Assembly: GCA_017450325.1 (NCBI GenBank)
Contig: JAFSVB010000026.1
Location: 1-42,391, forward strand
Source of the DNA: Bacilli bacterium
GTDB lineage: Bacteria > Bacillota_I > Bacilli_A > RFN20 > CAG-826
Direction of reading: 5' to 3'
Length of the DNA: 42,391 nt
This document shows positions 8,017 to 18,366 of this stretch, in pieces. Both the position numbers and the translations under genes were made by a program. The first letter of the stretch is position 1, and each line of letters opens with the position of its first letter. The notes beneath the pieces were generated by a model. It saw only the letters and a program-made list of their open reading frames with translations, searched no databases and was not told the DNA's origin.

Positions 8017-8814
8017 TTAATCGTCAAGTTCGCTGCTGATCGTGACAGAGAACCCGACCGTTTCGCTACGCGCGATGTCTTGTATGTCGTCGACGGTTCC
8101 TTCGAACCAGAAGGAAACTTTAAAGAATTTCGTCGTTGGAGTGGAATAGGTTGCCATCTTTTTGTTTAAGCCCTTTCCACCATAGGTGAAGTCCACATAG
8201 CTTTCTTTCGTAAAGGTATGCGAGTCTTCGTTGTACTCCATAAAGTATTTCTTGCTCGGACTCGTGTCGCCTAGCCATGCAAATTTCGAAGAGGAAGCAG
8301 TCGAGAATGTGTCGTCCGTGCACTCCAAGACAGAACCGCGGATCCATCTTTCGACGTTGGTTTTTGTCGTGGATACAGAAGAATTTGCCGTCCAATCTAG
8401 CTTGAAATGGATGGTGGATGCGTTGACGACTTCCTCGGCGTGGACTTCAATGCCAAAGGTCATGACGGAATCGGCAACGGTTTCGTCAGAGGCAAGACTA
8501 TACGTCTCATCTCCGGTCTTTTGGACGAAGGATTCGCCATACGAGCTGGAAAGATCTGCCATCGCCCAATTGCCCGTATGCGTCTCTTCTGCGGAAGAGA
8601 TATTGATGGCGCTGGAGGTGGAGTCGATGGCCTTGCCGATTGGATGCAAGGTAATCGCGAGGTTGGGGGCGTTCGATTTAATGGTTGCGGTATTGAAGTT
8701 GAGTTGAGTGGATGCGCGTTGCGTGAACCATGCAAAGGTCGTCGCGCCAAACGCACCCAGCGCAGTCAATGAGATGGCCGCGCTTAAAAGAGCGACTTTG
8801 GTTTTGTTTTTCAT
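8017..8814 (-). CDS. SipW-dependent-type secreted protein (TasA/camelysin-like)
   Basis: A 265-residue exported protein. Residues 1-28 are a signal peptide (KNKTKVALLSAAISLTALG) ending in the ATTFAWFTQ pattern seen in proteins cleaved by SipW-type signal peptidases, such as TasA and camelysin-like fibre proteins. The mature part is rich in Ser/Thr and beta-strand patterns. It ends with KVSFWFEGTVDDIQ and a short strand, resembling the tail of this family (…WLEG…D). No protease motif was seen. The start has a GAAAGGA ribosome binding site 5 nt upstream. It is preceded by a structured leader and its own promoter. The dedicated peptidase is probably the SipW-type enzyme at 13878. A role as surface fibre or matrix protein is inferred. 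Confidence 0.75.
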   Translation of the reverse strand: MKNKTKVALLSAAISLTALGAFGATTFAWFTQRASTQLNFNTATIKSNAPNLAITLHPIGKAIDSTSSAINISSAEETHTGNWAMADLSSSYGESFVQKTGDETYSLASDETVADSVMTFGIEVHAEEVVNASTIHFKLDWTANSSVSTTKTNVERWIRGSVLECTDDTFSTASSSKFAWLGDTSPSKKYFMEYNEDSHTFTKESYVDFTYGGKGLNKKMATYSTPTTKFFKVSFWFEGTVDDIQDIARSETVGFSVTISSELDD

Positions 8815-8842
8815 TTTTTCCTTTCATGACCGTCAAGTGGCT

Positions 8843-8908
8843 GACGATCGTAAGACTTTGGTAACCAGGGGGACATGGCCGTGGCATCCATGTCCTGCCT
8901 GGATCGTC
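8843..8908 (-). promoter_or_regulatory. Structured 5' leader of the secreted-protein gene (candidate cis-regulatory RNA)
   Basis: On the minus strand the leader can fold into a stem GACGATC/GATCGTC (8902-8908 with 8843-8849) that encloses a long hairpin. The hairpin has CCAGG/CCTGG (8898-8902 with 8865-8869) and a perfect 8-bp GGACATGG/CCATGTCC (8888-8895 with 8871-8878). A second small hairpin, CGTCA/TGACG, follows close to the ribosome binding site. I could not match it to a known riboswitch class; in particular, the conserved blocks of the c-di-GMP-I aptamer are absent. Confidence 0.5.
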
Positions 8909-8911
8909 TTC

Positions 8912-8939
8912 ATTCTAGCAAGACATTTTCAAAACACAA
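8912..8939 (-). promoter_or_regulatory. Promoter of the SipW-type secreted protein gene
   Basis: On the minus strand TTGTGT (8934-8939) and TAGAAT (8912-8917) are 16 nt apart. A start about 7 nt further on lies right at the 5' foot of the structured leader, leaving about 90 nt before the ATG at 8814. Confidence 0.6.
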
Positions 8940-9277
8940 AACGCGAGTTTCATTTATTTTTTTACACGAAATCTGCGCAAATCGCGCATATTTTTGCTAA
9001 TACGCTGTCTTAGTAAAGTATATGGGAAACTAGTAACTTATCGCGCGTGAAAACAAACGCGAGCTCAATAAAAGATTGATTTGCGAAACGCGTCCAATTC
9101 TTTTCATACTTCTCGAAATCACAGGTCACAATCTAGGGCTGCTTAATGGAGAAAGAACACGGCTCTAAAAAATTTTTTCGCAAAATTATTCCGATGGCAC
9201 CTACGTTTTTTCGATTATTTAACGTGGAAACAAAAACTCGCGTTACCTACTTCGAACAAAAATAATGTACATTGTAT
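8940..9277. other. AT-rich intergenic region with three copies of an 8-mer
   Basis: There is no gene in this stretch between divergent secreted-protein genes. The 8-mer AACGCGAG occurs at 8940-8947 and 9056-9063 on the plus strand and inverted at 9237-9244. One copy lies next to the minus-strand promoter and the inverted one upstream of the plus-strand operon leader. They could be binding sites of a shared regulator. No convincing -35/-10 pair was seen for the plus-strand operon. Confidence 0.35.
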
Positions 9278-9418
9278 GTGAGGCCAGCGATGGCCGGCGT
9301 CGGCTCACCGATCTCATAAAAGAAATTTTGGCGAGCTACGTTTTACGGGATATTCTTGTGCTCTAGTGCAAAGTGGCTTGCCATGAACAAAAAGAGAACC
9401 CATCTAAGGTGGTTTTTT
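9278..9418 (+). promoter_or_regulatory. Structured leader with terminator-like hairpin before the SipW operon
   Basis: Successive helices can be drawn: GTGAG/CTCAC (9278-9282 with 9304-9308) around a GGCC/GGCC hairpin, then GGCGAGC/GCTTGCC (9330-9336 with 9376-9382, one G-T pair). A short CCATC-TAA-GGTGG hairpin (9400-9412) follows, with six T residues, the form of an intrinsic terminator. It lies only 22 nt before the first gene. GGTGG can instead pair with CCACC (9426-9430) next to the GGGGG ribosome binding site. This suggests transcriptional attenuation or a riboswitch of unknown ligand. Confidence 0.45.
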
Positions 9419-9440
9419 CTTACACCCACCGGGGGCAAAA

Positions 9441-10331
9441 ATGATGCGAAAAGTCTATGAAAGCCATATAAAATCAGCAAAAAGCATACACTTCGCTCGT
9501 TCTGGGCAACGTATTGCAGCGGCTGTAGGATCCGGGTGTGCTTTTACGGTCGGCCTCATGGCAACGCTCGGCTACTTTCTCGGCACGCAACCTGGCTTTT
9601 CCATTCAGATCGAGGACGGATCCGCCTTGCGAAAAAGCGTGTTCCTTCATTCGGACCGCTCCAAGATAGAAAGCCATGATGATGGCGTACTGCGCCTTTA
9701 CGCGACTGGGCTTATGAACGCAAAGCCCACCACCGCTCGATTCGTCATGGACTATTTTTGGAGCCTGAACGAGGAAGAGAATCTTACCGGGACGCACGTT
9801 TTTAGTCGAGGCGAATCCGTCCAAGAAGCCCTCATTTTCACTTTTTATTTGAGTAACATCACCTCTCAGGACAAGGAGTTTACGTTCTTCGTACAGCTCG
9901 ATGCATATCTTCCACCTAAGAACCTAGACGTCAACCACCCCTACTCCTATCTTAGGCTAGCGACGGTTGTCGGCAGGGAAGACGGATCCTATAGCAACAT
10001 CACTTTTTATGGCAGCCCCAATAGCGCGGGTTTAGGCACCGTTGACGGAGGACCCTTCGATAATCGAGAGTGCGTCTCCGAATACGAGTTACTTCAAAAA
10101 GACGATTCAAAAATTCGTAATCCGTTATTTGGCGTGGATGGCAATGACTATTGCGTGAACTTCCTTGAGGATACCCAATCCATTCTCGTCCAGAACTACT
10201 CCATGCTACCAAATGACGTTTGGAGGTTCAGCATCATCGTTTTCTTGGAAGGCAACGATCCAGACTGCACCCGTTCGGCCCCAGAGGGTTGTCGGCTCAG
10301 CCTAAGCGCTCACTTTGGAGATTGTCGATGA
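9441..10331 (+). CDS. Secreted/membrane-anchored protein of the SipW operon
   Basis: A 296-residue protein with one N-terminal hydrophobic segment (about residues 26-48, VGSGCAFTVGLMATLGYF), which is either a signal peptide or an anchor. It is followed by an extracellular beta-rich domain. The C-terminal tail (IIVFLEGNDPDC…) resembles the end of SipW-dependent TasA/camelysin-like proteins, where a strand with LEGxDP is common. It lacks the AWF-type cleavage pattern of its neighbours, so it may stay anchored. Cysteines near 215 and in the last 30 residues could form disulfides. A GGGGG site 5 nt before the ATG serves as ribosome binding site. It overlaps the next gene by 4 nt. Function unknown; likely a fibre component or assembly factor. 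Confidence 0.65.
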   Translation: MMRKVYESHIKSAKSIHFARSGQRIAAAVGSGCAFTVGLMATLGYFLGTQPGFSIQIEDGSALRKSVFLHSDRSKIESHDDGVLRLYATGLMNAKPTTARFVMDYFWSLNEEENLTGTHVFSRGESVQEALIFTFYLSNITSQDKEFTFFVQLDAYLPPKNLDVNHPYSYLRLATVVGREDGSYSNITFYGSPNSAGLGTVDGGPFDNRECVSEYELLQKDDSKIRNPLFGVDGNDYCVNFLEDTQSILVQNYSMLPNDVWRFSIIVFLEGNDPDCTRSAPEGCRLSLSAHFGDCR

Positions 10332-11332
10332 AGTGCAACGGTCATCGGCTTTCAAAGCTAATCGCCGTTGTGGTATCTCTGACCTCAATTGGCTTGTTGA
10401 CATCAACCATGGTGTCCTTTGCGTGGTATCGCCTCGATGCTTTCGCCTCTATTTCAAACCTCTTCATCACGACAAGGGCGGGCAATGATTTAGAAGTTGG
10501 CTTCCGGCACGGGGACGACATTATTTATTCCGAAGCATTGAAGGAAAAAGAACTGTCACTCCTAGACCCACAATTCGAAAAGAATCGCTATCTCGCAGAC
10601 GTGTCAGGCATGTTCCTCGGCTCATGGTTTAACCAGGACACGGATTTAGGGAGTTCCTTCCCTGTCCTAAGACAAGCGTACACCGCCGGGGGGCCTACGA
10701 CGATTACCCCGAAAGCAGAGAGCAGATTTCTGCAGTTTGAGCTATTCTTCCGTTCCTCAGAACCCTGCCATCTGTATTTAGATCCCAGCACTTCATTAAG
10801 GAACGCAAACGAGGAAGCCGACCTCTTGGCGAGCATGCGCGTTTCCTTTCTTAGCGAAGATCGGTATCTGATTGCTGAGCCGAAGAAAAGCGATGCGCCG
10901 ACGCGCTTTGGAGGATTGCTCTCCCTGCATGATGGCAACGGTTTCTTCGATAACGTCAACGGGCGCGAAATCCTTTATGGTGAATATACCGGCAAGCCCA
11001 AATATCTGCCACCCATTGATCAAAATTCCGAAGTTTTAGAGGAAAAGGACGCCTTCCATGCACAACACCAGCCTGGCGTGGAACGCGTTGACCTCAACAG
11101 CGTTTCTTTTGCCTATGAACGCGCCGTTGCTTTGGAGGATTTGGTATATAGCCCTGGGTCCAACAACAAAGTGAGCTTCGGTGTCGTACCCGCGAAAAAA
11201 GAATATCGGGTTGTGCTAACGATATATATCGAGGGGTGGGATACCGAGTCTATCGACAGGCACAGTACCGGTTCGGTCCAAATAACGCTTTCGTTCTTAG
11301 GCGTGTACGACCTCTTAGGAGAAAAAACATGA
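10328..11332 (+). CDS. SipW-type secreted protein (TasA/camelysin-like), second in operon
   Basis: A 334-residue exported protein. Residues 1-35 form a signal peptide with hydrophobic core KLIAVVVSLTSIGLLTS and the cleavage-type pattern VSFAWYRL, as in SipW substrates. The mature part is soluble and mixed. The end carries VLTIYIEGWDTESID and a closing beta strand, the same C-terminal element as the other two secreted proteins here, and in a better form. The ATG at 10328 overlaps the TGA of the preceding gene and has a TTGGAG ribosome binding site. An upstream in-frame ATG at 10220 would give a nonsense extension and is rejected. It overlaps the ATPase gene by 4 nt. Probably a surface filament or matrix subunit processed by the SipW-type peptidase three genes later. 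Confidence 0.72.
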   Translation: MKCNGHRLSKLIAVVVSLTSIGLLTSTMVSFAWYRLDAFASISNLFITTRAGNDLEVGFRHGDDIIYSEALKEKELSLLDPQFEKNRYLADVSGMFLGSWFNQDTDLGSSFPVLRQAYTAGGPTTITPKAESRFLQFELFFRSSEPCHLYLDPSTSLRNANEEADLLASMRVSFLSEDRYLIAEPKKSDAPTRFGGLLSLHDGNGFFDNVNGREILYGEYTGKPKYLPPIDQNSEVLEEKDAFHAQHQPGVERVDLNSVSFAYERAVALEDLVYSPGSNNKVSFGVVPAKKEYRVVLTIYIEGWDTESIDRHSTGSVQITLSFLGVYDLLGEKT

Positions 11333-12804
11333 GTACCACATATTTCGTATTCGCATACCGTTTAATGACCGCGATTCATAACGACATCTCCTCCTTCTTC
11401 GCAGGAAAGGGGAAGGAGCTCCTGAATTTTGACAATTACCACTCCATTTTCCTTGAATATTCCGCCGGATTCGGCGTTGGAGGATGGACGATGTACATCT
11501 TGCTGATCCTCCTTGTTTTCGGACTCGCTGGGAGCGCGGTCGCTTTCTTCGTCTTCACGCTGCGGCGTTTTGTTCTCCGTGTAATCCCTAAGAAAGCAGG
11601 CGTCATCCAAGCGGAAGAGGAAATCGAATCGCTGAAAATGGCCCTACATAAATCGGAGAAGCAAAAAGACATTTTGCTTGAAGGAAATAAAAGAAACACA
11701 TTCTCGGGTACGGCGCTTGCGTCGCCGCAATCGCGGTTTCCGCGTCTCGAGCAGTTGGATATCCTGTATTCCGATCAAAAGCCACGCGAAGTCGCCAAAT
11801 GCGTTGAACTGCATTCGCTCGCGCAGGGCTTTCGAAACTACGCCGCGTCAAAGCTTCACCTATTTTATTCAGAGGAAATCGTGCGCCAGTTTCTTTCTTC
11901 CCTTGCATCGTCCAGATTGCTCGTGCTCGAAGGCATCTCCGGAACGGGCAAAACCTCTCTTCCCTATGCCTTTGGGGAATACGTCGGCGCGCACCCGAAT
12001 ATATGTTCCGTTCAATCATCTTGGCACGAAAAAAGCGACTTCATCGGCTATTACAATGACTTCACGGCAAAGTTCACCGAAACAGAAGCCCTCATCTCTA
12101 TGTACCGGGCCCTTTATGAACCCACGCCGAGTATCATCGTTCTTGATGAAATGAACATCGCACGCGTTGAGTATTATTTTGCCGAAATACTCTCGCTTCT
12201 TGAGAACCCCTCAAACGAAGACAAGGAAATACAACTTGTCGCCCAGCCCCTAGAGGACGATCCAAAGCATTTACGAAACGGGAAACTCAAGTTAGCCGAT
12301 GGCCTCTTTTTCGTCGGCACGATTAACAACGATGATTCTACATTTGCACTCGCTGATAAGGTTTATGACCGCGCGATGACGGTTTCCTTGCAAGAGCGTG
12401 GCGTTCCATTTGAATGCGAGGATACGGAAAGCGCCCCTCTAGCGGTCGCAGCTTTGAATGCCGCCTTCGCCAAAGCCGTGGAAGATCATCCAATTCCTCA
12501 AAAAATCGAAGAATCCCTGCAAAACCTCGTTGAATTCCTCTATGAAGAATATGGCATTTCCATCGGAAACAGGCTACAAAGGCAATGGAGTTCCTATTTG
12601 CCTTGTTATGTTGCTTGCGGTGGCGAGATGGACGAAGCCGTCGATTCCTTCCTAGTGAACAAGCTGCCGAGAAAGCTCGCAATCAGCATAAGCCGCGGAA
12701 ACGGCAGGTCGTTCCAGCCTTTATTGGACTTCCTTACCGATGCTTTCGGGCAAGATGCACTGCCTATGACTTCTCACAAGATCCGTTCGTTGGAGGCGAG
12801 GTAG
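11329..12804 (+). CDS. Membrane-anchored McrB-like AAA+ ATPase
   Basis: A 491-residue protein. Residues 53-80 are a transmembrane helix (YILLILLVFGLAGSAVAFF) followed by a basic stretch and a short coiled coil (about 95-120). The AAA+ domain begins near 185: Walker A GISGTGKTS (202-210), Walker B and family block IIVLDEMNIARVEYY (269-283), and sensor region GTINNDDST (about 335-343). These match the McrB branch, which in type IV restriction is a GTPase driving McrC. No DNA-binding domain was seen at the N terminus; the membrane anchor takes its place. AGGAGA precedes the ATG at 11329; the longer frame from 11236 is rejected. It is followed 4 nt later by a DUF2357 gene, the usual McrB partner type. 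In this setting a role in envelope or filament assembly is more likely than restriction. Confidence 0.8.
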   Translation: MSTTYFVFAYRLMTAIHNDISSFFAGKGKELLNFDNYHSIFLEYSAGFGVGGWTMYILLILLVFGLAGSAVAFFVFTLRRFVLRVIPKKAGVIQAEEEIESLKMALHKSEKQKDILLEGNKRNTFSGTALASPQSRFPRLEQLDILYSDQKPREVAKCVELHSLAQGFRNYAASKLHLFYSEEIVRQFLSSLASSRLLVLEGISGTGKTSLPYAFGEYVGAHPNICSVQSSWHEKSDFIGYYNDFTAKFTETEALISMYRALYEPTPSIIVLDEMNIARVEYYFAEILSLLENPSNEDKEIQLVAQPLEDDPKHLRNGKLKLADGLFFVGTINNDDSTFALADKVYDRAMTVSLQERGVPFECEDTESAPLAVAALNAAFAKAVEDHPIPQKIEESLQNLVEFLYEEYGISIGNRLQRQWSSYLPCYVACGGEMDEAVDSFLVNKLPRKLAISISRGNGRSFQPLLDFLTDAFGQDALPMTSHKIRSLEAR

Positions 12805-12808
12805 AAAG

Positions 12809-13891
12809 ATGATGAGTAGCGTTTCCTTTTACGCCCAAAAAGAAAGCGGGCATCTCGACCGGTCTATTTCCGACATATTTGAAGAGGTTCTCCCTTCCAT
12901 CCAGTCCATTATCGACCGTTTCTCGAGCGTCCTTTCTTCTAAGCGCGTCATGGTACGGGCCGAAAGGGCAAAGCATACCGATGCGGAAACCCTTTTGCAT
13001 CTGTCCGCACATTCAGAAAAGCTTCGCTATGTCCAGGGAAATCGCATCGTCCCCAGCGAGGTCCTTTCGAAAGAGTTTTATGACGACATCCATTCTTATG
13101 AAAACCGTTTCTTGATGACCCTGCTTAAAAGGGCGTTGGTCTTTTTGAACGACAGAATCGAATACATTCAGGCAAACTTGCCCTTATTTCATGCACTGCA
13201 GGCTTCCTTTGCCTTTGGGGACCAACGACTTCAAATACTTTGGAAACGTCCCGTAGATTCTCTCCAGCTCGAAAAGGATCTAGAACGCCTTAAAAAGCTC
13301 CGTTCAACGGTGGTTGCCTTAGGGCAGAAGCCATTGATGAAGGCCCTTCTGGGGAGTCCGGAAATCGTCCTCCCCCTCGCTCCCACAAACCTCCTCCGGC
13401 TTGATCCAGATTATAAGAAGGCGGTTGAACTTTGGGATTATATCCACGCCTATCGTTCGATGGGCGTTCTCTATGACGCGGAACGAGGAGAAAACCTATT
13501 GAGCCCAGAAGATATGGATGAGTTTCGCTCCATATTGCAGATCTTTGAAAGGAAGTTAAGAACCTTCGAACGTACTTCTTCGTCCTCTGCTCATGAGTTA
13601 TTTCAACCAATGTCGACTTTTTCTCTGGAACATGAAACTTTAGATGGTGGGCGTTTCTTTTACGCCTCCTTTCGAAGTTTCCTGAAACAGGAAGAAATGC
13701 AAAAACAGGTTTCGATTGAGACCGATTTGGCGGAACGGGGCGCCAAATCCATCGATTCATATCAGCGTAGACGCACGGCGGCCTTCCGTGAGGTCTATGC
13801 TGGCCCCGCCATGGAATCCCAACAATGCAACGATTGCATCAAGGCATTGCGTAGGGAAAAGAAAGGGGGACGCAAAAATGAGACGCGATAA
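12809..13891 (+). CDS. DUF2357 (McrC N-terminal-like) protein without nuclease domain
   Basis: A 360-residue soluble, largely helical protein. The element SYENRFLMTLLKRALVFLNDRI (residues 96-117, given in parts: YENRF at 97-101) is the hallmark I associate with DUF2357, the N-terminal domain of McrC-like proteins that work with McrB-type ATPases. After it come helical segments and a basic C terminus; no PD-(D/E)xK nuclease motif is visible. It starts 4 nt after the McrB-like gene and overlaps the signal peptidase gene by 14 nt. ATG at 12812 is an alternative start. It probably acts as regulator or substrate adaptor of the ATPase. The family call rests on one motif plus its neighbour, so it is moderate. 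Confidence 0.6.
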   Translation: MMSSVSFYAQKESGHLDRSISDIFEEVLPSIQSIIDRFSSVLSSKRVMVRAERAKHTDAETLLHLSAHSEKLRYVQGNRIVPSEVLSKEFYDDIHSYENRFLMTLLKRALVFLNDRIEYIQANLPLFHALQASFAFGDQRLQILWKRPVDSLQLEKDLERLKKLRSTVVALGQKPLMKALLGSPEIVLPLAPTNLLRLDPDYKKAVELWDYIHAYRSMGVLYDAERGENLLSPEDMDEFRSILQIFERKLRTFERTSSSSAHELFQPMSTFSLEHETLDGGRFFYASFRSFLKQEEMQKQVSIETDLAERGAKSIDSYQRRRTAAFREVYAGPAMESQQCNDCIKALRREKKGGRKNETR

Positions 13892-14555
13892 CCGGATATC
13901 AGAAATCTTGTCCACGTTCGCGCTCGCGTTGGCCCCTTCGGTCGCTGCGATTTTGATCGCAGGAGGGTCGAGCGCAAGGGATAACTTCGGGATCCCCGTC
14001 CTTTATGGTTATTCGCTTCTATACGTCTCGACGGATTCCATGGTGGGGTTTCAAGAGGACTCCCTTCCACAGGGAACGGGAGTCCTCGTTCGCAAAGTTC
14101 AACCATCCACGCTATCCATCGGGGATGTAGTAACCTTCTATGATCGTCGCATCGAAGCGATGAACACCCACCGGTTGGTGGCGGCCCCCGTGTATGAAAA
14201 CGGAATGTATCGATTCCATACGATGGGAGATAACCGCAAGAGCGCACTATATTCCTACGAAGGCGAGCGTTTCACGGAAAAGGAATTGCTCGGCAAAGTG
14301 GAGGTCCACTCGGACGCCATATCTTTTCTGCTCGCCGCTTTTTCTCCGTCAATTTCTGCAATGGCAGAGACGATGGGAAACCTTTCTCAAGCATTTTTAT
14401 TTCCGCTTTTCACGCTGCTCCCATTAGGAATCTTTACCGTCGTCGCCACGATATCAGGAATCCGTGAATGGTTTCGCGAAGAGGAGGAGCAATCTAAAAG
14501 AGACGTGGCTAGCCTATCGATGCAACGTTTGAAGCAAGAGGTAACATCATGTTGA
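13878..14555 (+). CDS. sipW: SipW-type (ER-type) signal peptidase I
   Basis: A 225-residue membrane-bound signal peptidase of the ER/SipW type, which removes signal peptides from TasA-like proteins. Residues 12-30 form the first membrane helix. The catalytic Ser is S54 in YVSTDSMVG, and the general base is His98 in AMNTHRLVA, replacing the Lys of ordinary bacterial enzymes. The GDNRKSALY block (117-125) supplies the conserved Asp. A second membrane helix lies at about 168-190, followed by a charged tail. AAAGGGGGA precedes the ATG at 13878, which overlaps the DUF2357 gene by 14 nt. It likely processes the secreted proteins at 10328 and 8017. The usual SM-x-P proline after SM is replaced by G. 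Confidence 0.85.
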   Translation: MRRDNRISEILSTFALALAPSVAAILIAGGSSARDNFGIPVLYGYSLLYVSTDSMVGFQEDSLPQGTGVLVRKVQPSTLSIGDVVTFYDRRIEAMNTHRLVAAPVYENGMYRFHTMGDNRKSALYSYEGERFTEKELLGKVEVHSDAISFLLAAFSPSISAMAETMGNLSQAFLFPLFTLLPLGIFTVVATISGIREWFREEEEQSKRDVASLSMQRLKQEVTSC

Positions 14556-17239
14556 ACAATCATCGAATTACTATGATCGTTTCCTACACAGCCATAGGGG
14601 TTTTGCTGGGAATTTTAGGGGTAAGATATCTTTTTCTGAAAGAATACTTATTCGCTGTTTTAACTTTCTTCGTCCTTATTGTCTCCCTTGCGTTTAGCTG
14701 GCAATCTCTCATGGATCTACGAAATGGGAAGCAGGCAATAAATCAAATAAGAAGGAGCGTTGAGAAACTGGGGATACCCGTTTCAGAACAAGGTCAGCAT
14801 CAAAACTGCAACAAAGCACTGCAGTCTATCTATGAAGACATCGAGAAAGCTCTTTGCATAGAACAAGGACCAAATAAGCAGCAAGAGGAAGGCGATATGC
14901 AACGTACATCAGAGAACGCTTTTTTTGAAAGGATTCCCGTTTCAAAATGCGTCTGTTATTTTCAAACAAGCGAGCAGAATGATGCGACGCTTTCCGAGCT
15001 TGGCCAATTGATTGGCGAGCATTTCCCATATGCCGACGTCGATGCGCGGCGATTTGGCGTATACGTCACGTTCTCTTGCTTTGACTCCGAGCAGGAAGTA
15101 TTCGGCCAAATCGAAGAGTTCCAAAAATCATGGAACGATCATCACGAGCGTCTCTCCCCGCTTTCCGTTGGCATCTCGTTTAGCCATAAGCAGGACGACC
15201 AGAGAGATCTCCATGAAGAAGCCAGGCAAGCCGCGTTTCTAGGAAAGGGGGTGCGCGTTCTGCCGCAAGAGAGCATCAACGAAAACCCTGCTCATAGCGA
15301 AACGTCCTCATCAAAGATGGCAGAGCTTTTGGATTCCTTCGATCAACTCGGAAGGAATCTGTTGAAAAAACTACCCTTCGATTGCGTTGGCATGATATCG
15401 CGTGATATTGAAACGGAGGAATACAAGGTTTTGTCGGAAGTGCGCTTCAGCAAGCCGTCCATTCTAGAGCACGCGAAGAATAACGTCCTTCCATGGAACG
15501 ATATCGGCAGTTTTTTGGACAGCATACAAGGTAGGGCGTTATGGGGCGTATCGAAAAGGGGGTATCTATCAAGGAACCAAGCAGAAATAGCGGAAAAATG
15601 GGGTGCTGATTCCGTTTACTTTATTCCTTATCAAATCGGAGGTTCTCTGGAGGGGCTCTGTTATCTTCTTTCCGAGGACCCCACAATACTTCTCCCAGAA
15701 CACCGCGAAGTGCTTCGGCCTTTTCTATCGCAGTTCCATCTCATCATTGCGAGCCAAACAGCCCTCGCCCAATATCGGAAACGGCAGGCAGAACACCGCA
15801 TGCTACTGAAACAATTTGGAGGAGTGCTATATAGTGTGGACCCATCATGCCATAGCATCCGATTTCTTTCATTGCCCGACGCAAACCCCAATGAAAAGAA
15901 GTGCCATGAATTCTTCTTCGGATCATCGGAGCCATGTCCATCCTGCCCGCTGCTCACACGAAGTCCTATGGTTGCCGCTTCGCCCGTGCTTGGAAAGGGC
16001 AACCAACGCTTTGTCTTGCTTCAAGACGGCACTTCCCCTACTTTGTTAATTTCGCCAGAAAACATAGGGATTGAAGAACAAAAAAACGCAAGTTTTGCGG
16101 AGATATTCGAAAAAGAGCTCATCTATGGCCGAAGCGGTTCCATTCTCTTTGCGCGTCTAGAAGACTACGTTAAGGAGGAGCGCGACTCCGTGGATCGATT
16201 CGTCCGCGGCAAAATGGAAGGCTTGGGGCTCGCCGAGGACCTATATGAGTATCAGCCCGGCGTCTATGCTTTTGTTCTACGCGGCGTCAACCAACGACAA
16301 GCGGCCTTCTTTGCCGCGAAAATCCACGAGGCACTGCGCATGCCGCCGGGATTCTCGCGTTTCCCCATCTTTTCCTGGTCCATGGGCGCATTTGAGTATC
16401 CCTACCGCGTCAATTCGCTATATACACTGAACGTTCTTTATGAATCCGCCATGGAAAAAGCCAAAACGCATGGACTCAATCGCTTCCTTTCCTTGCCCAA
16501 TACGCCATCGCTATCGCTCATGGACCGCCTTTATGAGGCGACGAACTATATTCTTCGCTCGGATCATATCCCTCTTCGATTCTCGGTCCTTTACGAATGC
16601 AAAACACGCATCCCCCGTTACGTCGTAACCCGCATCGATACCTCCCGCTTTGAGTTCCTATCCACTGACCAAGATGAGCTATACCGCCAACTAAGGGAAG
16701 GCCCGTACAGAATGCATATTAGTAACTTGATGTTGATGCAAGTCGAGGCGTTTCTTTGGAAGAATCTCAAAGACCTTCATCGACTCTCCCTCAAAGAATT
16801 CCACATCGAGATTCCTTCATCGTATTCCTTGAACGAACAGTGGGTCCGTCGTCTTTGTTCCATGGTGAGGATTACGAAGTGCCCAAAGGGTTTCCTCAAG
16901 TTAAGAACGCTCGACGGCCTAACGGTTTCGCAGAATCTTTCCAGCGCATTATCACGCGTTGGCGTTGAAATCGTAACGTGCGACTTCGCCGAGGATAAGC
17001 GTTTCTCTTTCTTAGATGCCAATGCAATCACGGCCGCAACGACTTCTTTGGATGCTTTGCTCCGTTTGCAGGAAGATGTAAACAAGTCGCCCAGCGCTTG
17101 GCTTGTCGCGCGCTTGCACAATAAAAAAGAGAAAGAGTATGCGACCGCGCTCGATATCCCCTACGGGACAGGCCCTTATTATGGCGGATACTGTGACGAA
17201 AAGACCTTGCTTCGGCAGATCCGGCAATGCGCTTCCTAG
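14549..17239 (+). CDS. Large membrane protein with degenerate GGDEF-GAF-PAS-GGDEF-EAL architecture
   Basis: An 896-residue protein, last in the SipW operon. Two membrane helices lie at about 8-28 and 33-52. Residues 125-240 fit a GGDEF fold without its motif (RRFGVYVTF where RxGGDEF is expected; then SVGISF and ARQAAFLGKG). Residues 260-405 look like a GAF domain. At 420-490 is a PAS-like segment with KCHEFFFG…PCPSCP, the C-x-x-C pattern seen in some PAS sensors. A second degenerate GGDEF lies at 520-647 (QPGVYAFVL; SMGAFEY; ESAMEKAKTHGLNRF). Residues 655-896 resemble an EAL domain ending in IPYGTGPYYGG, where EAL proteins have QGYxF. Neither cyclase nor phosphodiesterase residues are preserved, so it probably senses or binds c-di-GMP or another ligand rather than making it. 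Assignments are by pattern reading only. Confidence 0.6.
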   Translation: MLNNHRITMIVSYTAIGVLLGILGVRYLFLKEYLFAVLTFFVLIVSLAFSWQSLMDLRNGKQAINQIRRSVEKLGIPVSEQGQHQNCNKALQSIYEDIEKALCIEQGPNKQQEEGDMQRTSENAFFERIPVSKCVCYFQTSEQNDATLSELGQLIGEHFPYADVDARRFGVYVTFSCFDSEQEVFGQIEEFQKSWNDHHERLSPLSVGISFSHKQDDQRDLHEEARQAAFLGKGVRVLPQESINENPAHSETSSSKMAELLDSFDQLGRNLLKKLPFDCVGMISRDIETEEYKVLSEVRFSKPSILEHAKNNVLPWNDIGSFLDSIQGRALWGVSKRGYLSRNQAEIAEKWGADSVYFIPYQIGGSLEGLCYLLSEDPTILLPEHREVLRPFLSQFHLIIASQTALAQYRKRQAEHRMLLKQFGGVLYSVDPSCHSIRFLSLPDANPNEKKCHEFFFGSSEPCPSCPLLTRSPMVAASPVLGKGNQRFVLLQDGTSPTLLISPENIGIEEQKNASFAEIFEKELIYGRSGSILFARLEDYVKEERDSVDRFVRGKMEGLGLAEDLYEYQPGVYAFVLRGVNQRQAAFFAAKIHEALRMPPGFSRFPIFSWSMGAFEYPYRVNSLYTLNVLYESAMEKAKTHGLNRFLSLPNTPSLSLMDRLYEATNYILRSDHIPLRFSVLYECKTRIPRYVVTRIDTSRFEFLSTDQDELYRQLREGPYRMHISNLMLMQVEAFLWKNLKDLHRLSLKEFHIEIPSSYSLNEQWVRRLCSMVRITKCPKGFLKLRTLDGLTVSQNLSSALSRVGVEIVTCDFAEDKRFSFLDANAITAATTSLDALLRLQEDVNKSPSAWLVARLHNKKEKEYATALDIPYGTGPYYGGYCDEKTLLRQIRQCAS

Positions 17240-18366
17240 TCCTTATAAAACTTTTCAACGCAGGCGAGGAACTTTCGCTCGCTTAAGTAAAATCGAAAGC
17301 ATTTCTGTTTCGGACAATCAGGTCCGTAAATATAGATTGGATCGCGCGGACCAGATATCTCGATTTTCGTCGGAAACGAAAAGAACTCATTGTTCTCATC
17401 ATTCCCGATGACGATGAAATAGATGCCGACGTCCGGCCCAAATTTGGAAACGATGCCAATGCCATCGAGCATATTCGTACGCTCTGCTTCGTCGACGACC
17501 GCAATGATATAAGGAAATTTCTTTTTGGCAGTCTTATTATGCTCCTCGAAGTTGCCGAACTTTCCGTTCGCGTCAAGGACGTTCAAACGGCGATGCATCT
17601 CGTCTTCCAAGGCGTAGATTCCATCCCAAAGTTCCTGCTGGTCGCGGGCGATATCGCGGTACAAAAAACGAAGGCGGTCACAGTAGCCCATTCTCTTCAA
17701 GGGGTCGAAGAACATGAACTGAAGTCTTGATGGAACGTTGGTCCGTAGAAGATTCAGGACCATTTGGTTTACGTAGGACAAACGGCCAGACCCTTGCTTC
17801 CCATAGACCCATACATTTTTTAGATGCATCAGGTTTGAATCGACGAATGAGGGGCCGGAAAAAGACCCTAACGTTACATCGAGATTTGGGTAAAGTTCTG
17901 GCTCTTCATTGTAGTCACAGTAATCGAAATAGTTTTGCGATAGCGATGTCATCGCGTGCTTTTTCGTTTGCCAAGGATGATCAAACCTCGCCCAGGAAAA
18001 CGCTTTGTCAAAGAGACGATAAAAGCGTGGGTCGTCATAATTTAGGAAAACGACAACCGAGTATCCGATTTCCGGTGCGTAATCTTCAGGGTCACCCACC
18101 ATAACGCCGACGACGAATAGGCCATATCCGCGTGCACGATGGATTTGCTCCACCACTTCCCCATAGGATCCCGGCTTCTCTGAGACAACTACGAAAGCGA
18201 GTTGCGTCGCCCCAGCCACTTCTTCGTCAAGCGGCGGCATATGCTCGCCCCAAACGTACGGCGCAAAAGATTCGCATTGGTTTCTATGAAACCAGCGATA
18301 CATCTCCATGGCGATGTCGCTATCCACGTCGCGGTATATGGGGAGAACGGATTTATAAAGTTTCAT
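17236..18366 (-). CDS. FtsK/HerA-like ATPase fold with degenerate Walker A
   Basis: A 376-residue protein. The C-terminal half resembles the FtsK/SpoIIIE motor: VWVYGKQGSGRLSYVNQMV (186-204) sits where GxxGxGKS belongs, but the Lys is replaced by Arg-Leu. LQFMFFDPLKRMGY (215-228) and LEDEMHRRLNVLDANG (253-268) match the FtsK core, and FPYIIAVVDEAE (284-295) is Walker B. The N-terminal part (GATQLAFVVVSEKPGSYGE at 52-70, then YGLFVVGVMV at 81-90) recalls a tubulin/FtsZ-like Rossmann segment, which is speculative. No membrane helix was found. AGGAAGAG lies 4 nt before the ATG. It converges on the GGDEF-EAL-like gene and shares a CTAG with it. ATP hydrolysis is doubtful. A secretion or division role is possible but unproven. 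Confidence 0.55.
   Translation of the reverse strand: MKLYKSVLPIYRDVDSDIAMEMYRWFHRNQCESFAPYVWGEHMPPLDEEVAGATQLAFVVVSEKPGSYGEVVEQIHRARGYGLFVVGVMVGDPEDYAPEIGYSVVVFLNYDDPRFYRLFDKAFSWARFDHPWQTKKHAMTSLSQNYFDYCDYNEEPELYPNLDVTLGSFSGPSFVDSNLMHLKNVWVYGKQGSGRLSYVNQMVLNLLRTNVPSRLQFMFFDPLKRMGYCDRLRFLYRDIARDQQELWDGIYALEDEMHRRLNVLDANGKFGNFEEHNKTAKKKFPYIIAVVDEAERTNMLDGIGIVSKFGPDVGIYFIVIGNDENNEFFSFPTKIEISGPRDPIYIYGPDCPKQKCFRFYLSERKFLACVEKFYKD

Follow-up and report, generated by a model that had tools for sequence, protein, structure and literature searches.

The operon described here lies at positions 9441-17239 of the forward strand of a 42,391-nucleotide stretch of DNA (positions 1 to 42,391 of contig JAFSVB010000026.1, assembly GCA_017450325.1; the whole stretch is called the window) from a Bacilli bacterium assigned to CAG-826 in the GTDB. 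Its six open reading frames (ORFs), A to F, were all intact. Their confirmed products are a pair of TasA-like proteins (A and B), an AAA+ protein of the McrB type that lies in the membrane (C), a DUF2357 protein lacking a nuclease (D), a signal peptidase of the SipW type (E) and a degenerate GGDEF/EAL-type protein (F). A sequence-only reading, made by a model from the letters and a list of ORFs, had described six coupled genes, and its coordinates and junctions were reproduced: A/B and B/C overlap by 4 nucleotides each, D/E by 14 and E/F by 7, and C and D are separated by a gap of 4. The locus extends beyond these genes to a TasA-like gene at 8017-8814 (-) and a convergent FtsK/EssC-like gene, G, at 17236-18366 (-), both counted into it because their position is kept in a sister species. 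Where scanned, the flanks of the operon contained housekeeping genes and no defence genes.

Gene C (11329..12804, +) encodes a membrane-anchored McrB-type AAA+ nucleoside triphosphatase of the NxD class. An alignment of 34 C proteins was the source of the invariance calls, the charge counts and the profile searched against the PDB, where McrB was the only match (hmmsearch); E. coli McrB was also matched by hhalign (E 2.7e-10). The Walker A motif GISGTGKTS and the transmembrane segment at residues 53-80 named in the sequence-only reading were both recovered. The former spans residues 202-210 (11932..11958, +), with G202 and S204-S210 invariant and position 203 nearly so, and the latter (11485..11568, +) was the only membrane segment. 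D273, E274 and N276 of the Walker B region DEMN (residues 273-276; 12145..12156, +) were invariant, as was the NxD motif NNDD (12325..12336, +). The NxD form was likewise seen in plasmid CoCoNuT-type McrBs (GTANHDETT, GTANTDEST). An NxxD reading of the motif was rejected, since the sister-species protein has NNDE, a sequence compatible with NxD but not with NxxD. C homologues carried on average 0.5 lysine or arginine residues ahead of the membrane segment and 4.8 behind it, and because positive charge is concentrated after the segment, the N-terminus is predicted to lie outside and the AAA domain inside. No DNA-binding domain was matched at the N-terminus, a region taken up by the membrane segment. 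A match to the FtsB/DivIC family (Pfam) was found in one of the 34 homologues (E 7e-4); the charged region next to the transmembrane segment was clear.

Gene D (12809..13891, +) encodes a protein of 360 amino acids consisting of a DUF2357 match (the McrC N-terminal type) and a helical tail only. The DUF2357 assignment made from the sequence alone held in a hidden Markov model (HMM) search, where D scored 29.5 bits and the Pfam cut-off is 23.3. Aligned by hhalign with four CoCoNuT-type McrCs, D scored 99.2% (E 2e-19); with the single E. coli McrC no similarity was detectable. A long C-terminal helix (residues 286-359) was present in the structure model of D, whose confidence was middling (predicted template-modelling score, pTM, 0.57). 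The tail profile matched coiled-coil or low-complexity helices in the PDB, and the full D profile likewise gave mainly matches of this kind. Neither Foldseek nor VIA-align retrieved an McrC structure with the D model, a failure that is uninformative because the model is of only middling confidence. The absence of a nuclease from D, claimed before, was borne out: Pfam found no nuclease domain in the operon proteins or in one DUF2357 homologue of 1596 amino acids, no operon protein contained an RxxxxH motif, and no other effector domain was detected in the operon proteins. Very long tails, giving DUF2357 proteins of 1167-1596 amino acids in total, were observed at three loci in relatives, numbered here L084 (4452-9242), L085 (5145-9071) and L078; the longest, which was the one scanned, had no additional Pfam domain above cut-off. 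At another, L155 (6355-10619), an McrB-type domain is part of a 901-amino-acid protein that is predicted to cross the membrane about 12 times and adjoins a DUF2357 gene.

The remaining products of the first half of the operon are TasA-like. Gene B (10328..11332, +) encodes a TasA-like fibre subunit with the SipW-type signal VSFAWY, and gene A (9441..10331, +) a TasA-like protein with an N-terminal membrane segment and a C-terminal EGxD signature. Neither A nor B matched a Pfam or NCBIfam family, their profiles found nothing in the PDB, and sequence similarity of B to TasA was undetectable. The AlphaFold2 model of B was of good quality (predicted local distance difference test 88, pTM 0.83). 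Foldseek gave no significant match, and the top 1000 Foldseek chains were realigned to the model for structural ranking. The best realigned structure was the TasA fibre 8aur (Z 6.2 over 134 residues, rmsd 3.3), and the top ten also included two more TasA structures and two archaeal donor-strand filaments, the Sulfolobus 0406 filament and the Pyrobaculum bundling pilus. Although a Z below 8 can mean merely a common arrangement, the model comparison makes a TasA-like fold likely for B. The divergent gene at 8017-8814 (-) carries the SipW-type signal peptide TTFAWFT and is called TasA-like from its sister-species position and from two weak family matches below cut-off, TIGR04088 (14.0 bits) and Peptidase_M73/camelysin (12.3 bits). 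A SipW-type FAW[FY] motif was present in 35/46 B homologues and 30/34 TasA-like neighbours, and in 0/30 A homologues. Of the two secreted TasA/camelysin-like proteins proposed in the sequence-only reading, A needs correction: it lacks the SipW motif and may be an anchored subunit, perhaps staying in the membrane.

Gene E (13878..14555, +) encodes a SipW-type signal peptidase with a charged C-terminal tail that is predicted to be cytoplasmic and is found in most relatives. The window protein itself matched NCBIfam SipW weakly (E 3.9e-5, under the curated cut-off); all 35 aligned members of its family matched NF046067, and the Ser54/His98 dyad, as previously proposed, was invariant. Gene F (14549..17239, +) encodes a membrane protein with a CxxCP motif, the CxxC being kept in 15 of 17 homologues. 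F had no Pfam GGDEF or EAL match and no catalytic motif was found in it; its designation as degenerate GGDEF-EAL is upheld by a second operon of the source genome, where the homologue of F contains an EAL domain that Pfam matched at 112.6 bits.

Judged by its sequence features, the operon is of the CoCoPALM type. This class was named by Bell et al. (eLife 2024), in a few sentences of the main text that report no test of function, as an NxD McrB GTPase/ATPase fused to a membrane/coiled-coil segment (FtsB-like), with an adjacent signal peptidase and a coiled coil in the McrC homologue (PMC11090510). Most of these features were found here: an invariant NNDD in C (NNDE in the orthologue), a DUF2357 partner whose helix 286-359 and tail profile point to a coiled coil, and an adjacent gene of the SipW-type signal peptidase family. 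C also has a transmembrane segment, with homology to FtsB/DivIC in the one homologue noted above. Compared with that main text, the present analysis adds the TasA-like subunits, the genes for EAL, nucleosidase-like and degenerate GGDEF-EAL proteins and a variant lacking two of the genes (X and Y, below), although the published supplement may already name the TasA-like partners. Apart from Bell et al. and the preprint of that paper, nothing in the literature searched was found to discuss CoCoPALM. The system had earlier been called an undescribed envelope or fibre-assembly system; an envelope or fibre role rather than restriction is favoured here as well, but "undescribed" was wrong because the class already had a name. 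The preference for an envelope or fibre role also came through the two refuting checks set by the sequence-only reading, on the DUF2357 match and on a nuclease or restriction context.

Comparison with better-known systems set the operon apart from each of them. It shares the NxD motif and a homologous DUF2357 protein with type III-A-like CoCoNuT operons on plasmids of Deinococcus, Polaromonas, Rhodoferax and Nostoc, whose McrBs, in kinase/phosphatase/VWA operons, were taken as type III-A CoCoNuTs via the published description. However, CoCoNuTs have their own or an associated nuclease (in McrC, HEPN or other), none of which was seen in the window operon, and the plasmid examples lack a SipW/TasA context. 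With the type IV restriction system McrBC of E. coli it has in common the AAA+ domain of C and the pairing with a DUF2357 protein, whereas C is membrane-anchored and has no methylcytosine-binding domain, and D has no PD-(D/E)xK nuclease. The tapA-sipW-tasA operon of B. subtilis also combines a SipW-type peptidase with TasA-like secreted subunits, of which B and most TasA-like neighbours, but not A, have SipW-type signal peptides here; that operon has no McrB/DUF2357 pair.

Recurrence of the gene order with SipW and TasA-like genes, which the sequence-only reading had put forward as a check, was found in dozens of genomes. Among 96 genomes searched, homologues of D were present in 57 and of C in 68; within the genus C occurred in 28/31 genomes, and in a phylum-wide draw in 46/245 (E 1e-20). 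In viral contigs no homologues were found apart from three distant matches. The typical order near C was (S)-A-B(-B)-C-D-E-X-Y-F, where S is a small membrane protein, X a membrane EAL protein and Y a phosphorylase/nucleosidase-like protein; elsewhere in the class the order A-B-E-C-D-E was found. In 61 C loci, picked by similarity to the window, some of them cut by contig ends and with mechanical ORFs as gene calls, the same gene chain contained D in 60/61, SipW in 51, a TasA-like gene in 47, X in 34, Y in 29 and F in 20. Y may be a ligand-binding sensor. By eye, the usual catalytic Asp of Y appeared to be lost at L069 4165-4884, L070 13469-14197 and L122 3059-3799.

Some variants retained C-D without SipW (L138, L140, L142, L145 and L146), so that SipW cannot be the sole client of C-D. 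In one such form (L138, L140, L142, L145), C-D adjoined a giant cadherin-like protein with 9-11 repeats in 4/4 loci scanned, together with a protein of about 420-455 amino acids. In a C-D-C form, two C-type ATPases surround one DUF2357 gene (L098, L103, L146, L154 and L168), and the neighbours scanned at L098, L146 and L168 included transglutaminase-like or MBG-domain proteins. Given these neighbours, the theme shared across the variants is one of predicted surface-type or secreted-type partner proteins.

The window operon is a reduced form of this arrangement, as X, Y and S were absent from it by HMM search. X, Y and F are all present in a second operon of the source genome, which is apparently divided between contigs C23 and C176, and several genomes hold two copies, one of an A-B-C and one of an A-B-B-C lineage. 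The absence of X and Y as an assembly artefact was rejected: in the sister species (genome G003) the window locus is spread over two contigs (L157 and L177) with its gene order kept, with the contig break between D and E and with E and F overlapping directly, neither X nor Y between them. Between the two species the locus at 8017-18366 was only 22-38% identical (TasA-like protein 32%, A 38%, B 30%, C 38%, D 27%, E 37%, F 22%, G 25%), against 76-82% for the DegV, ABC ATPase and LrgB flanks (DegV 81%, ABC ATPase 80%, LrgB 76%; FtsX 59%); C of the second operon was 87% identical in the same two species. The sister-species C of the window locus nevertheless retained 64/65 invariant residues. Given this retention and the synteny, the window locus is a real, reduced and fast-diverging form with a constrained core, that is, a surface-type locus diverging fast around an unchanged catalytic core. 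Candidate causes of the divergence are diversifying selection, relaxed constraint and allelic exchange.

We consider it moderately probable that the operon encodes a nucleotide-driven module, anchored in the membrane, for the assembly or regulation of a TasA-like surface fibre that SipW processes. In the mechanism proposed, C would be held in the membrane, exposing about 55 residues on the outside and keeping its AAA ring inside, and D would bind and activate this ring through DUF2357, with no nuclease involved; hydrolysis of nucleoside triphosphate by C-D, with D as activator, is expected by analogy with McrBC (PMC11090510). The long helix of D and the charged cytoplasmic tail of E could connect the ring to the peptidase. 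E would mature both B and the TasA-like protein next to the operon, A might serve as an anchored base, and hydrolysis by C-D would drive or gate assembly, release or turnover of the fibre. Regulatory input would come from F and, in relatives, also from the EAL and nucleosidase-like proteins. The protein families, the likely fold of B, the membrane topology, the conserved active sites and the recurrent gene order were computed; from them we infer an active ring, its contacts with D and E, and the fibre as its target.

Several points weigh against this assignment. The Z score of B to TasA is modest and FimA pilins score close behind; the context counts do not represent an unbiased sample, since the loci were selected by similarity to the window; and the tie of C-D to the fibre or to SipW is itself inferred. 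Moreover, the assembly of TasA in B. subtilis proceeds by donor-strand exchange and involves TapA and SipW, but no ATPase is known to take part (PMC9674648, PMC10151520). This mode of assembly leaves room for a different division of labour, in which the fibre would form spontaneously and C-D would control the SipW peptidase or turn over membrane proteins (extraction or quality control). The charged tail of E in most relatives and the overlap of E with D fit such a role, but it does not account for the C-D variants without SipW, and we regard it as improbable.

Two further adverse points favour the main rival, anti-phage defence, in which the membrane McrB/DUF2357 pair would sense infection, for example at the envelope, and trigger a response in the membrane or by signalling; the surface structures it monitors would be the SipW/TasA-like proteins. 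The hyperdivergence of the locus between well-conserved flanks would also suit an arms race, and PDC-M26A, a candidate defence model of PADLOC, matched C with 127.5 bits (1.6e-37). PDC-M26A is a computational candidate only; the PADLOC models found no further PDC-M26 components in D, E or F, and no publication on PDC-M26 was found in a literature search. The nearest relatives of C and D outside the class are moreover CoCoNuT-type systems, which are defensive by prediction. Against defence stand the lack of a detected nuclease or other effector domain in the operon, the housekeeping flanks, the scarcity of homologues in viral contigs and the secreted-type partners in all main variants. Presence in 28/31 genomes of the genus is also more than is usual for defence systems. 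Defence was accordingly judged unlikely, and a fibre or envelope role is better supported than restriction because of the partner genes, the flanks and the near-universal presence in the genus. Alternatively, the window copy could be a paralogue of the complete second operon that is decaying and retains hardly any function or none. The missing X and Y, D and F being shorter than in most relatives and the long branch of C would agree with this. Yet every frame is open, and in the sister species the locus is reduced and syntenic in the same way, with E and F coupled and with the invariant residues of C almost fully kept; decay is very improbable.

McrB-type rings are known from nucleic-acid restriction. 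If the fibre assignment is right, the operon would represent a branch of the McrB family with an envelope role, widespread, membrane-bound and without a detectable nuclease, alongside SipW-processed fibre proteins, and would supply a nucleotide-driven part to a TasA-type fibre system, a type thought to assemble without one. More tentatively, and with doubt prevailing, membrane McrB/DUF2357 rings without a nuclease could be a general nucleotide-driven machine that assembles or remodels extracellular beta-sandwich proteins, such as TasA-like fibres and cadherin-repeat adhesins; in that case, a family whose only known role is in nucleic-acid defence would have been turned into a motor for surface structures.

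The convergent gene G (17236..18366, -) at the edge of the locus matched Pfam FtsK_SpoIIIE with 31.8 bits. G was rejected as a general component of the system, as it had no BLAST match in 40 relatives and was common to the sister species only, where its counterpart (L177 7130-8272) occupies the same place. Its Walker A motif, GKQGSGR in the window, is degenerate in both species, and G is therefore probably not an active ATPase.

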